Source: a virus. From it: DNA of 29,027 nt. The notes beneath the pieces were generated by a model. It was not told where the DNA came from, made no database searches, and saw only the letters and a program-made list of their open reading frames with translations. The first letter of the stretch is position 1; the number at the start of each line of letters is the position of its first letter. Where the stretch lies: positions 1 to 29,027 of the IMG/VR virus record IMGVR_UViG_3300033151_000426; one strand, written 5' to 3'. Positions 27-28,878 of the stretch are shown piece by piece. Made by a program: the position numbers and the translations under genes.

Positions 27-102
27 TGGAGCAGGCAACAGGAATTGAACCTGCGACATTGTGATTGGAAATCACATACTCTACCTGCTGAGTTATACCT
101 GC
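27..102 (-). tRNA. tRNA-Gly(UCC) with encoded CCA
   Basis: On the minus strand a full cloverleaf can be folded. The acceptor stem is GCAGGTA/TGCCTGC (one G-U pair), the D stem ACTC/GAGT, the anticodon stem TGTGA/TCACA with loop TTTCCAA, and the T arm GCAGG-TTCAATT-CCTGT. The anticodon is UCC, which reads glycine GGA codons. The discriminator base T is followed by an encoded CCA. The 5' end lies one base after the stop codon of the small lipoprotein gene, so the tRNA is probably cut out of the late-operon transcript. An intact tRNA preceded by phage genes argues for a phage-carried tRNA and against an attachment-site remnant. Confidence 0.93.
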
Positions 103-103
103 G

Positions 104-274
104 TTAATCTTTCAGCACCTTGCCACCTGAAGAAGTACATTCTACATGGCTCAGCAATATAGTCTGTGATTTCTTCACGCAATTGACCGGCTCAGTGCTA
201 TCCACCGTTACCGTTTGAGTAATGCAAGCAGCAATGCCGAATGTTGCAATGAGTATAACCAGCAGCCATTTCAC
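104..274 (-). CDS. small predicted lipoprotein, 56 aa
   Basis: This short gene starts with GTG, overlapping the stop of the metallopeptidase gene as GTGA, and ends one base before the tRNA. The protein begins MKWLLVILIATFGIAACITQ: one lysine, a hydrophobic stretch, then IAAC, a good lipobox with Cys17 as lipidation site. The mature part is about 40 residues, polar, with two more cysteines (about 32 and 46) that could pair in the periplasm. It is predicted to be a secreted, membrane-anchored lipoprotein. Size and position at the end of a late operon would fit an Rz1-like outer spanin subunit, but it is not proline-rich and no inner-membrane partner is visible here. It could also work with the neighbouring lipoprotein metallopeptidase. 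I do not recognise a family. The gene call rests on the overlap, signal peptide and spacing. Confidence 0.72.
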   Translation of the reverse strand: MKWLLVILIATFGIAACITQTVTVDSTEPVNCVKKSQTILLSHVECTSSGGKVLKD

Positions 275-744
275 AAGTTAAATCCCCAGCTTGCCGCGTT
301 ATCTAACTGCACATCAATTGGTAAAGCCGCCGACTCGGCACGCCCATACGCATGGTCTTTAGTGTCCAATACCGCATGTGAACCTTCATGTAAAATCCAT
401 CCACTCGCGTTTTCCAATCGGGCAAGCGGCATGTTACAAAAGTGAATCTCGGGGTACGGGTAGTCTGCCCAGCCGTAAGTTGTGTTCACATCATAACTTC
501 TGCACAGCGAGTCAACAGTAAACATGTCGAGTTGGGCAAGCATCTGGTTTGCACCATCAACCCAGACCCCTTCCGCAGCGAGTAACCTGCGCTTGGCTTC
601 CGGCATCGCCTGAGCAATCAACGTCACGACCTGTTCTGTGGTTGCTCCTGCTGTTGACGCACCGGTGGCCGACCTACCCTGCATACATGCGAGGAAACCC
701 ATCACAACCAGTGCGATGAGCATCCAGCGTGTCGCGTTGATCAT
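271..744 (-). CDS. predicted lipoprotein zinc metallopeptidase, aspzincin (M35-like)
   Basis: From the ATG at 744 the protein has 157 residues. A GTG at 774 would add 10 residues, but these put acidic residues ahead of the signal peptide, so the ATG is preferred. Residues 1-20 look like a lipoprotein signal (Arg6, hydrophobic 8-19, FLAC with Cys20). The end of the domain carries HEGSH at 119-123 (HExxH zinc motif), then TKDHAYG at 128-134, matching the D-x-x-Y-G element in which Asp is the third zinc ligand of aspzincins and Tyr stabilises the transition state. PEIHFC at 98-103 and LDNAASWGF near the C terminus also fit M35/peptidyl-Lys endopeptidase conservation. The distance from the second His to Asp is only 7 residues. 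The domain is small, with Cys81 and Cys103 possibly bonded. Substrate is unknown. Likely site of action is the periplasm or outer membrane after lipidation. It is coupled to the small lipoprotein gene by a GTGA overlap. Confidence 0.75.
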   Translation of the reverse strand: MINATRWMLIALVVMGFLACMQGRSATGASTAGATTEQVVTLIAQAMPEAKRRLLAAEGVWVDGANQMLAQLDMFTVDSLCRSYDVNTTYGWADYPYPEIHFCNMPLARLENASGWILHEGSHAVLDTKDHAYGRAESAALPIDVQLDNAASWGFNL

Positions 745-757
745 TTCATCACGATGT

Positions 758-892
758 TTAATCGTCAGCACCACGATGGCTCAGAATTGAGATCGCAATC
801 TCAGCTTCTGGTTCCGGCTCGGGTGAAGTGTGCGACTCGAAAAAATCTTCGATAATCTCAGTAGACGGATCGCTCAGTATTGGTAGGCTCAT
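758..892 (-). CDS. small acidic protein, 44 aa, unknown function
   Basis: The ATG overlaps the stop of the preceding 159-residue gene as ATGA. The frame stays open for 44 codons to a TAA at 758-760, past the alternative GTG start of the metallopeptidase and 13 bases before its ATG. The peptide is strongly acidic, with a PEPEPEAE stretch in the middle (residues 24-31) and no membrane segment or cysteine. Nothing identifies its function. The ATGA overlap in a run of identically coupled genes is the main reason to believe it is translated. It could be a short structural or chaperone-like peptide, or a spacer ORF that keeps ribosomes moving to the lipoprotein genes. Confidence 0.55.
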   Translation of the reverse strand: MSLPILSDPSTEIIEDFFESHTSPEPEPEAEIAISILSHRGADD

Positions 893-7848: not shown

Positions 7849-8217
7849 CTATTCTGTTGCGTGAGTGGTGTCTTGTGTAAATGACACTCTACCATGTTGC
7901 AGCGTTTCAATCTCGCTATTACCGCTACCGATCTTCTGTTGTTGAAGGTCGTAGTAATGATTCCCGCTGGCGACGAACGTGTCAACGCTCGATAGTTGAA
8001 TTTGCAACTTACCTGACGAACTGTCGTTACCCGCTATGGCAATTGCCGTGACCTGTACCAATGCGATCACATCAGGGTCTTTGGGGCTTTCTTTCACCGT
8101 AAACCAGAATTTATCATCTGCGATATCGATTGCTACACCGGATTCATCGGTGACAATAATCTCAAGAATAATGTCATCACCACGCATGATGCTCTCTATA
8201 TCCTTTCGCTCGCTCAT
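7849..8217 (-). CDS. BppU-N-like small baseplate/tail protein (paralogue 2)
   Basis: A 122-residue protein aligning by eye with the products at 1368-1706 and 8312-8674: MRGDDIILEI near residue 11, DIADDKFWFTVK near 31, and SGNHYYDLQQQ near 83, then a final strand pair GRVSFTQDTT. This is the immunoglobulin-like docking domain pattern of baseplate upper proteins. It directly precedes the large fibre gene, matching the order BppU-like then MGC-protein seen again at 1706-889. The start overlaps the stop of a 33-codon gene as ATGA. The likely role is to connect the fibre to the tail tip. The name rests on pattern similarity and context. Confidence 0.74.
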   Translation of the reverse strand: MSERKDIESIMRGDDIILEIIVTDESGVAIDIADDKFWFTVKESPKDPDVIALVQVTAIAIAGNDSSSGKLQIQLSSVDTFVASGNHYYDLQQQKIGSGNSEIETLQHGRVSFTQDTTHATE

Positions 8218-8315
8218 TTTTTCTTCCTCTGAGTACTTTTTACAGACTTGATTACAAACCGTCCGTTTGATTTAGTCGATATTTGCTTACCTGCCATTTT
8301 AAATTTGACGGTCAT
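8214..8315 (-). CDS. tiny basic protein, 33 aa, unknown function
   Basis: This gene sits exactly between two BppU-N-like genes, overlapping the first as ATGA at its start and the next as ATGA at its end. The 33 residues include about ten lysines plus two arginines and end in QRKKK, with no acidic residue, so the peptide is extremely basic. An in-frame extension to 8399 exists but would overlap the previous gene far more than any other pair in this operon. No domain can be named. It could bind nucleic acid or an acidic partner, or merely couple translation between its neighbours. Belief in it rests on the double ATGA junction. Confidence 0.5.
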   Translation of the reverse strand: MTVKFKMAGKQISTKSNGRFVIKSVKSTQRKKK

Positions 8316-8674
8316 GCGCGTGTTACCTGCTGTAGAACTAATACTTTGCCAAGCGCCACCGTTGTGATCTCGCCAGCGCCTGACTGAGTTTTCGCCCACT
8401 GATAATCGTAATGGTATGTCCCGTGGGCGATATTAGACTCCTCAGCCGATACAACGAAGCGAACTACCCCAAATCTAGCAAGTTCGCTGGACTCAATGTT
8501 AAGAATCTTCTGCAATACGGCGTCTTCATCGCTATCGTCTTTGCTGCGTTTTAATGTGAGGTATAGCACGTCACCGATAACATCTAACGGGTCTCCGTTG
8601 TCATCAGTCAAGCGTAGCTCGAACACCAGAGTGTCACCTTGGACAAACGGCTGAAGGTCTGAGAGTATTGTCAT
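8312..8674 (-). CDS. BppU-N-like small baseplate/tail protein (paralogue 1)
   Basis: A 120-residue protein and the first of the three paralogues in transcription order. It carries VQGDTLVFELRLTDDNG at 11-27, LDVIGDVLYLTLKRS at 30-44, a variable charged middle, and HGTYHYDYQW at about 84-93, followed by G-x-G and a last strand pair. The RGDD seen in the other two is QGDT here. It overlaps the adhesin gene's stop by one base (TAATG). As with the others, an immunoglobulin-like docking domain of the baseplate upper protein type is the best reading. Three diverged copies suggest either a hetero-oligomeric ring or separate adaptors for separate receptor-binding proteins. Confidence 0.74.
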   Translation of the reverse strand: MTILSDLQPFVQGDTLVFELRLTDDNGDPLDVIGDVLYLTLKRSKDDSDEDAVLQKILNIESSELARFGVVRFVVSAEESNIAHGTYHYDYQWAKTQSGAGEITTVALGKVLVLQQVTRA

Positions 8675-18114: not shown

Positions 18115-18149
18115 CACGATAGCGATTGAACTGTAAGCATTTATCGTGT
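18114..18149. promoter_or_regulatory. 8-bp inverted repeat, candidate operator between RHH and HNH genes
   Basis: ACACGATA at 18114-18121 and TATCGTGT at 18142-18149 are perfect reverse complements, 28 bp centre to centre. Each copy lies directly before the predicted -10 hexamer of the gene it faces, and each is followed 12-14 bases later by that gene's ATG. This symmetry suits binding by the adjacent RHH protein. Confidence 0.55.
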
Positions 18150-18154
18150 AAAAT
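18126..18154 (+). promoter_or_regulatory. sigma70-type promoter of the third HNH gene
   Basis: TTGAAC (18126-18131), a 17-bp spacer, and TAAAAT (18149-18154; 5 of 6). The predicted start, about 7 bases on, coincides with the HNH ATG at 18162, so the message would be leaderless. The downstream operator half-site overlaps the spacer and the first base of the -10. Confidence 0.65.
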
Positions 18155-18161
18155 ATACCAC

Positions 18162-19097
18162 ATGAAAACTTGTACTAAATGTGGTGAAGAAAAGCGGCTG
18201 GCGGAGTTCTACGTATGGGACGGTAAATATAAAGCGGAGTGTAAGCCGTGCGCCATATTAAGAGCCAAGGAATACGCGCGTAAAAATAAAGAGACAGTCA
18301 GCAAGAAAAAACACAACGCATATCTCAAGAAAACAGAAGGTATTGTGACAAGGTTCATACCAAGAGAGATTATAGACGGAAAACTTACTTGCAACACTTG
18401 CAACGCGAACAAAACAACCTCTGAGTTCCCTATACATAAAAATAGCAGGTTAGGTGTGGGATACAAATGTAAAACTTGTATGACCGATGCACGGGTGAAA
18501 AATCGACACGAAACAATACCAAATTACACGCCTGTTCGCGTTAGAAAATTTACAGAAGTGGGATTTGTTTGCAGAGACTGTAACACAGATAAACCATTAT
18601 CAGACTACGTTAAAAACAAAGCAAACATACTTGGAATAGACTACAGATGCAAAGAATGTCGGAAAATATACACCAAGAATAATGAGGCCGCAATTCGTTT
18701 AAAAGTGAAACAACACAGGGTAGCTAACAAAAAAAATATAGCGAAAATATTTAAGAGTTGGAGCGTCAAAAATAAACCTAAGCTTAAAGCTAAAGCAGCC
18801 AAAAGATTAGCAGACGTTGATAGTAGAACTCCAATATGGGCAAGCCGCGCTCTTATTTTGAATGTTTATGAACAGGCTGTAGAACTAATGGAGTTGTGGG
18901 GAGAAGTTGTGCATGTTGACCATTTTTACCCTTTGCGCGGCAAACAGGTGTCAGGGCTTCATGTGTGGGAAAATCTACAACTATTAAGCGCAACAGCGAA
19001 TCACCAAAAGTACAACAAACACCCTGACGAGATTGTTTACCTCGGTTGGCTGTATCCACAGGCATTAAAAAGCCACCCTCTTTACGAAGGTGGCTAG
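18162..19097 (+). CDS. HNH endonuclease with three zinc-ribbon repeats
   Basis: The ATG at 18162 is chosen because a promoter fits immediately before it. An in-frame TTG at 18126 is the -35 element itself. The 311-residue protein opens with three cysteine modules of the form CxxC ... CK(x)C: CTKC/CKPC (4-30), CNTC/CKTC and CRDC/CKEC, spaced about 65-70 residues, forming three zinc-binding repeats. A lysine-rich linker follows. The C-terminal nuclease core is HVDHFYPLRGKQVSG (251 on) with HVWENLQLL and ANHQK. These positions match the His-Asp-His and Asn of HNH nucleases whose cores read VDHI-x-PL-x-GK. This is a different HNH family from the two at 2189 and 3770. No ribosome-binding site is visible. 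Its A+T-rich codon use differs from the flanking genes, which suggests transfer. Confidence 0.9.
   Translation: MKTCTKCGEEKRLAEFYVWDGKYKAECKPCAILRAKEYARKNKETVSKKKHNAYLKKTEGIVTRFIPREIIDGKLTCNTCNANKTTSEFPIHKNSRLGVGYKCKTCMTDARVKNRHETIPNYTPVRVRKFTEVGFVCRDCNTDKPLSDYVKNKANILGIDYRCKECRKIYTKNNEAAIRLKVKQHRVANKKNIAKIFKSWSVKNKPKLKAKAAKRLADVDSRTPIWASRALILNVYEQAVELMELWGEVVHVDHFYPLRGKQVSGLHVWENLQLLSATANHQKYNKHPDEIVYLGWLYPQALKSHPLYEGG
19067..19095 (-). terminator. intrinsic terminator after the tail tube gene
   Basis: On the minus strand AGCCACC and GGTGGCT form a 7-bp stem with an 11-base loop, followed by TTTT(A). It lies about 23 bases after the stop of the tail tube gene. On the other strand no T-run follows, so it acts only on late transcription. 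The stem encodes the last codons of the HNH gene on the plus strand (ends at 19097). Confidence 0.75.
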
Positions 19098-28212: not shown

Positions 28213-28878
28213 TCAATTGATCTCCTGCTCTGTCAGCGTCACTCGCAGCTTGTCGATTTCCCGGTCAACGATTGCCAGTTGTTCTGGGCTGAGGCCGACC
28301 TCCCGTTCAATGTGGTCGGGTAAGGTTGAGAGTGATATGTCGATGACCTTAAACTTCTCAGCGATGAAGTGATGCAGGTCGTCGGTGGAAACATAGTTGC
28401 CGAGTTTCACCTGCAACTCGACGTATTTCAGTTGTGACTCGATTACCGCCTTTCGTTCGGCGGGCTTCAGGCCAGCATAGGGATCGTCGCCGTCCTCCGT
28501 GCTCAGGTCGATGCCAAATATCTTTCGTGCGGTTTCCGGCAAGCTATATGCAAGCTTGCCGTTTACCGTACCCGTTGATCTGAGGTTGCCAATTTGTTCG
28601 CTCACATGACGAGGGGTCATCTGTAATAATTTACTCAATTCGAGCTGCGTATAAATATCGTTGCGGTCAATTACCCAACGTTTCGCGTTGCCCTCACGAC
28701 CTGAGACGCGATTTTGCGACGTGGAGGTAGCTTCTGGCTGGTTGTTTGCGGCTGGATCATCTGCCGCAGAACCAGTTGGTGAACCGTATCTCTGGTTGCG
28801 TTTGTAGTGTGCGCTACATAGTTGTTTTGCGAAGTTTGGGTTTTGACAACCACGTACACTACATTTACCTTTAGCCAC
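28213..28878 (-). CDS. terminase small subunit (Nu1-like) with N-terminal zinc finger
   Basis: It starts at GTG, with AGGGG six bases before it. The 221-residue product has an N-terminal finger Cys6-x4-Cys11-x9-Cys21-x2-His24 followed by YKRNQRYG, a motif common in phage HNH proteins and DNA-binding small proteins. A low-complexity linker (33-65) leads to a winged-helix segment (about 71-117, TQLELSKLLQMTPRHVSEQIGNLR, then SLPETARKIFG), typical of Nu1-like TerS. A helical, charged oligomerisation part follows. It recognises packaging sites and regulates TerL. The finger is not part of lambda Nu1 and may add DNA contacts. It comes directly before TerL, as expected. The domain fusion is the odd feature. 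Confidence 0.88.
   Translation of the reverse strand: MAKGKCSVRGCQNPNFAKQLCSAHYKRNQRYGSPTGSAADDPAANNQPEATSTSQNRVSGREGNAKRWVIDRNDIYTQLELSKLLQMTPRHVSEQIGNLRSTGTVNGKLAYSLPETARKIFGIDLSTEDGDDPYAGLKPAERKAVIESQLKYVELQVKLGNYVSTDDLHHFIAEKFKVIDISLSTLPDHIEREVGLSPEQLAIVDREIDKLRVTLTEQEIN

Follow-up and report, generated by a model that had tools for sequence, protein, structure and literature searches.

A phage lipoprotein related to M35 metallopeptidases looks like the exchangeable passenger of a two-lipoprotein cassette behind tail fibre genes

The virus record analysed here (29,027 nucleotides, referred to as the window; an incomplete 29-kb record) encodes a small lipoprotein that is almost certainly a true homologue of the M35 (aspzincin) metallopeptidases. 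Compared with a second phage locus, this protease looks like the exchangeable passenger of a mobile two-lipoprotein cassette placed behind tail fibres, since the leader of the protein and the 56-residue lipoprotein that follows it are common to two otherwise unlike phages while the mature protein differs. The cassette, overlooked in an earlier sequence-only reading of the window, is the main new result; it points to an interchangeable tool with which the phage may alter the infected cell's envelope. M35 peptidases are familiar as enzymes that fungi and bacteria secrete; a phage-carried and probably membrane-anchored mini-enzyme, with no propeptide and no usual lysine pocket, is a new context for the family, and the slot that it occupies holds another protein in an unrelated phage.

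The peptidase had been placed at 271-744, and an open reading frame is indeed found there, with the strand corrected to complement(271..744), as the plus strand of 271-744 is closed. The base composition by codon position is similar to that of the neighbouring genes. The translation start may be GTG774/771 or an ATT near 759 instead of ATG744, because the leader residues KHRxEM are conserved in the related phage gene (L153, see below). The following features lie on the minus strand.

27-102, minus strand: tRNA-Gly (TCC), directly behind the cassette and close to the record end
104-274, minus strand: second lipoprotein, 56 aa, with lipobox Cys17 and, in the mature part, Cys32 and Cys46
271-744, minus strand: M35 aspzincin-like lipoprotein metallopeptidase, 157 aa; start ATG744, stop TGA at 271-273, frame open to GTG774
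277-300, minus strand: C-terminal motif N149-A150-A151-S152-W153-G154-F155-N156 (family form NAD-N/S-Y/W-E-Y/F), from alignment columns
343-348, minus strand: Y133-G134, the Tyr lying three residues past the zinc-binding Asp; invariant in 41 homologues
355-390, minus strand: predicted zinc site H119, E120, H123 and D130 (residues 119-130), from the alignment with homologues
685-759, minus strand: cassette leader [I/M]KHRxEMIxATRWMxIAxVxM...AC (n-region, hydrophobic stretch, lipobox Cys20), from comparison with L153
758-892, minus strand: acidic ORF of 44 aa, its ATG overlapping the stop of the gene at 889-1368 and its end just ahead of the peptidase
889-28878, minus strand: head-tail operon from profile matches, with TerS, TerL, portal, protease, capsid (Phage_cap_E), tape measure, tail and fibre-like genes

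The terminase is lambda-type, with about 40% identity to those of Hafnia, Fels-1 and Vibrio phages. The peptidase had been assigned to a late operon, and it does lie at the distal end of the head-tail operon, where the order is a tail gene (889-1368), the 44-residue ORF, the peptidase, the 56-residue lipoprotein and the tRNA-Gly. The GTG start of the 56-residue lipoprotein overlaps the stop of the peptidase, and the minus strand shows no promoter-like site before the peptidase gene. Both lipoproteins are probably expressed together with the tail genes, that is, late. A conserved-tail search in IMG/VR returned no relatives, and in a prophage of a gammaproteobacterial genome that carries a related tail protein (G120) the stretch examined behind the tail genes has neither an M35 gene nor a similar lipoprotein pair.

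Some other features of the operon may be recorded here. Plus-strand genes at 18126-19097 and 2189-2986 are inserted in the minus-strand operon and have reversed GC skew; the former contains repeats that resemble zinc knuckles and matches HNH weakly, and the latter appears by eye to be a homing-endonuclease-type DNA-binding protein, with no family match. Three phrog_1084 paralogues (1368-1706, 7849-8217 and 8312-8674, minus strand) are scattered among the tail-fibre genes. The terminase small subunit (28213-28878, minus strand) begins with a Cys-rich stretch resembling parts of HNH endonuclease proteins.

A scan of IMG/VR with the 56-residue lipoprotein gave one relative, 70% identical, on contig 3300028843_000271 (L153). 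Directly upstream of it, in an overlapping gene, L153 encodes a lipoprotein of 150 residues with the N-terminus MKHRAEMIDATRWMVIAIVAMAVSAC. The leader of this protein and that of the window peptidase, MINATRWMLIALVVMGFLAC, are identical at 17 of 26 residues (local score 92, shuffles at most 45), and a weak similarity extends to the DNA level. The mature part of the 150-residue protein has no HExxH, contains Gly-rich hydrophobic stretches and gives no significant family match. The L153 cassette also sits behind a fibre-like gene; otherwise the contig encodes proteins of the T7 type (a head-tail adaptor, an internal virion protein and a tubular tail protein), and a comparison of all window proteins with L153 gave, beyond the cassette, just a weak 51-residue match between fibre-like proteins. 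Judged from these sequences, and from two loci only, the lipoprotein pair appears to have moved between unrelated phages with exchange of the passenger domain. Two more small lipoprotein genes follow the cassette in L153 (5283-5480 and 5466-5697), the first of which matches phrog_6873 (E=1e-6) and, weakly, an Rz-like spanin (0.011) and Cor (0.074).

The motifs HEGSH, D-H-A-Y-G and LDNAASWGF, from which M35 homology had been claimed, are all present (H119-E-G-S-H123, T128, D130-H-A-Y133-G); the peptidase carries HEGSHAVLDTKDHAYG, and its C-terminus reads LDNAASWGFNL. The homology is borne out by two profiles. A profile of 41 bacterial aspzincins, from which the peptidase was left out, scores it at 43.6 bits (E=1.7e-10 for 100,000 sequences), the motif's share of this score being favoured by the selection of the 41 members with HExxHx4TxDxxYG. 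The same profile picks the peptidase alone among 528 window ORFs, and the best of 5000 shuffles reaches 7.5 bits. The Pfam family PF14521 provides a test independent of that selection, and here the expected match to Aspzincin_M35 is obtained at residues 111-154 (22.6 bits, E=1.5e-4) but remains below the curated cut-off of 30. All 42 alignment rows, including the peptidase, match PF14521 at E 0.01 or better. Among solved structures, the best sequence match is the peptidyl-Lys metalloendopeptidase of Grifola frondosa (GfMEP, 1g12; residues 44-142, E=0.016). The window peptidase has no match in PHROGs or NCBIfam. Its BFVD matches are to zincins in general (SprT, IrrE), with no E below 0.001, and the lack of a closer match there says little against relatives. 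Because the conserved C-terminal NAD motif is altered (Asp to Ala), the protein is, by sequence, classed as a divergent M35 homologue and not as a typical member; that motif is conserved in the family but does not define zinc binding.

The loop of seven residues between the second His and the Asp had been regarded as short, a view that did not hold: a DNA pattern for HExxHx4TxDxxYG, with the same loop spacing, occurs in 109 stretches of the genome contigs, most of which read as aspzincins and 41 of which supplied the profile, and the loop length is therefore ordinary for bacterial members. Among the genomes, a Psychromonas MAG (G001) has about ten separate PF14521 genes (L012, L058, L079, L135, L142, L145-L151), and PF14521 carriers make up about 4% of the sampled genomes of its class.

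M35 genes in phages are rare in the collections searched, and not absent. Three different M35 queries gave no tblastn match in 50,697 phage records, and for the window peptidase itself neither tblastn nor peptide patterns run against IMG/VR brought up a close relative, in collections from which records very similar to the window may be missing. The motif pattern with a spacing of 6 retrieved two real M35 genes from IMG/VR. The first (L114, contig 3300033002_000018, 8744-9850, minus strand) encodes a protein of 368 aa that matches PF14521 at 117 bits, and has tail sheath, tube, baseplate hub and endolysin genes as neighbours. The second (L115, 10835-11401, plus strand) encodes an M35 domain (113 bits) with no recognised export leader, on a contig that also carries genes for a T7-like structural protein and an ssDNA-binding protein and is possibly a phage-host border. 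Two matches at a spacing of 4 were both due to chance and contained stops, and a spacing of 5 gave none. In PHROGs, one of the 42 aligned proteins matches an unnamed PHROG (E=0.0016). A search for literature naming aspzincins together with phages found nothing on the topic.

Structure prediction agrees with the family assignment when the alignment is supplied. With the 42-row alignment, AlphaFold2 gave a model (pLDDT 80, pTM 0.72) that superposes on solved M35 enzymes over residues 34-157; the single-sequence model failed (pLDDT 39.8), and the fold evidence therefore depends on the homology alignment. The top PDB match in Foldseek is deuterolysin (1eb6, E=0.0032, probability 1.00). On structural realignment the first six rows are all M35 enzymes, with Z of 12.8-13.0 (1eb6 13.0, with 2.6 Å over 123 residues; AsaP1, 2x3a, 12.9; GfMEP 12.8), followed by Pra1 at 6.8. 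The peptidase is thus predicted by the model to have the deuterolysin/GfMEP fold.

Across the alignment of the peptidase with its 41 bacterial homologues, H119, E120, H123, T128, D130, Y133, G134 and A150 are invariant. In M35 the proton donor is reported to be the Tyr three residues past the Asp that binds zinc (PMC11985622). The C-terminal motif is altered, as alignment of GfMEP (NADNHEYF) with the peptidase (NAASWGF) places A151 at Asp154 and G154 at Glu157. The first of these columns is Asp in 40 of the 41 relatives and Glu in the remaining one; the second is Glu in 27 of 41. Asp154 of GfMEP reportedly (Hori et al. 2001) also lines the Lys pocket (S1') and is not part of the zinc site. The GfMEP mutant E157D takes Arg besides Lys at P1' (PMC11985622). 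From the alignment, the pair of acidic S1' residues that characterises peptidyl-Lys metalloendopeptidase (M35.004), Asp154 and Glu157, appears to be missing in the window enzyme; this loss, of the NAD Asp (NAD to NAA) and of the acidic residue three positions on, had gone unnoticed in the sequence-only reading. Since the acidic S1' residues behind the lysine preference of fungal M35 enzymes are lost (Asp to Ala, Glu to Gly), zinc chemistry would be kept while a lysine preference is not expected: Lys specificity is unlikely, and the enzyme should have a different P1' preference.

Relative to the family, the peptidase is without four residues after Cys103 and without most of the C-terminal helix, the chain ending two residues past F155. 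The shortened helix and the lost Asp could render the enzyme weak or inactive. If catalysis had been lost through these changes, the M35 fold might have been kept for binding, for example in a receptor-binding lipoprotein, and both the missing segments and the replacement of an Asp that is otherwise so well conserved are in line with such a history. However, this divergent protein retains every zinc ligand together with the catalytic Glu and the Tyr, and the lost Asp is said to belong to the pocket in GfMEP. An inactive relative is quite improbable, and we consider it likely that the peptidase is an active protease.

The predicted lipoprotein signal is likewise present, with the lipobox F-L-A-C20 (assigned by eye) behind a hydrophobic stretch; leader and Cys are both conserved in L153. 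The protein is very probably an exported lipoprotein. Its peptidase domain starts almost at the lipid-anchor Cys, with no propeptide. In E. coli, an Asp at position +2 is known as a sorting signal of lipoproteins. If the host is Gram-negative, as suggested by head genes of the lambda type, by the lipoproteins and by G120, anchoring in the outer membrane is most likely, because residue +2 of the peptidase is Met and not Asp.

The reading that we prefer is as follows. The peptidase would be a compact zinc endopeptidase with the M35 fold, exported via its lipoprotein leader and made late alongside the tail proteins, in which H119, H123 and D130 would bind zinc, E120 would polarise the water and Y133 would stabilise the transition state. 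Working from the outer membrane, it may cut the exposed parts of envelope proteins in the infected cell, for instance the receptor that the phage itself uses; this would save new phages from being held up on infected cells or on debris, and would keep competitors out. The 56-residue lipoprotein may act in parallel, in the manner of Llp, Cor and Rtp45, or may guide the protease to its target. The genes of superinfection-exclusion lipoproteins immediately follow those for receptor binding or the tail tip; Llp, Cor and Rtp45 block the receptor or change it from its periplasmic side, and an internal disulphide is present in Llp (PMC9586334, PMC12685063). By analogy with these, a role in receptor inactivation or superinfection exclusion is tentatively proposed, and it may well turn out otherwise. 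A literature search brought up no case of a phage inactivating its own receptor with a protease. The 56-residue protein has no detectable similarity to Cor, Llp or solved structures and no family match above the similarity of leaders; such short proteins diverge fast. It is doubtful, and conceivable, that the slot serves proteolytic superinfection exclusion or envelope opening, with either an M35 protease or a domain without enzymatic activity placed next to a constant small lipoprotein, with the receptor or tether destroyed and not just blocked.

The cassette evidence fits receptor cutting, a block of superinfection, lysis and release of progeny alike, and does not choose among them. The main rival is a lysis accessory, in which the protease would cut the ties between outer membrane and cell wall (OmpA, Pal or Lpp-like tethers) and the 56-residue lipoprotein would be its spanin-like partner in the outer membrane, the two helping to breach that membrane as infection ends. 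Lysis genes can occur behind the tail fibre gene of T7-type phages, and the cassette lies behind tail-fibre genes in the T7-type L153 too, where the weak match to an Rz-like spanin (E=0.011) belongs to the next lipoprotein; among those window proteins covered by the search, none was recognisable as a holin, endolysin or spanin. The last point is offset by the incompleteness of the record, as lysis genes could sit beyond its end, and in lambda-type phages they are usually found upstream of TerS. Furthermore, no inner-membrane spanin was found adjoining the cassette, and the L153 passenger is not a protease, which argues against proteolysis as the shared function of the slot. We regard a lysis role as unlikely.

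Somewhat less likely still is a cargo of lysogenic conversion, a lipoprotease that would serve the host of a prophage (in nutrition, or in defence against bacteria or predators) and have no role in infection. The distal end of a head-tail operon is a usual site of accessory genes, which suits a mobile, exchangeable cassette, and bacterial M35 proteins are mostly exported, a few of them resembling lipoproteins. Nevertheless, the genes are packed against the tail operon or overlap it, with no promoter match upstream, which makes expression from a silent prophage doubtful; neither an integrase nor a repressor was recognised in this record, and L153 is of the T7 type, a mostly lytic group.

If the peptidase is active, it would be an example of phage proteolysis at the outer membrane, an enzymatic route to superinfection exclusion or lysis, and a small M35 protease with a new specificity. 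The constant leader and the constant small lipoprotein provide a handle for finding more envelope-acting phage proteins.

Among known systems, GfMEP (PF14521) shares with the peptidase the HExxH...T.D..YG motif with all ligands, the Glu and the Tyr, the predicted fold over residues 34-157 (Z 12.8), and a Cys pair in matching places (a Cys before the first strands, and Cys103). In contrast with GfMEP, a secreted free enzyme, the window protein is a phage-encoded lipoprotein without a propeptide, about 30 residues smaller, below the Pfam cut-off and with Ala and Gly for Asp154 and Glu157. AsaP1 of Aeromonas salmonicida and other bacterial M35 enzymes (2x3a) are alike in predicted fold (Z 12.9) and motif, and AsaP1 is also exported from a Gram-negative cell; however, AsaP1 has a long N-terminal part before the peptidase domain (in a chain of 343 residues, the family match covers 167-341), whereas the window domain follows almost directly after the lipid-anchor Cys. 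The M35 protein of L114 is likewise phage-encoded, close to tail genes and provided with an export signal, but it is an ordinary Pfam member of 368 aa in a contractile-tail module, with a long N-terminal part, a different loop length and no lipobox. Finally, although Llp (T5), Cor (T1, phi80) and Rtp45 act by binding and not by cutting, and have no detected sequence similarity to either window lipoprotein, they too are small phage lipoproteins adjoining receptor-binding or tail-tip genes, and the 56-residue neighbour of the peptidase resembles them in size and in its extra Cys pair.
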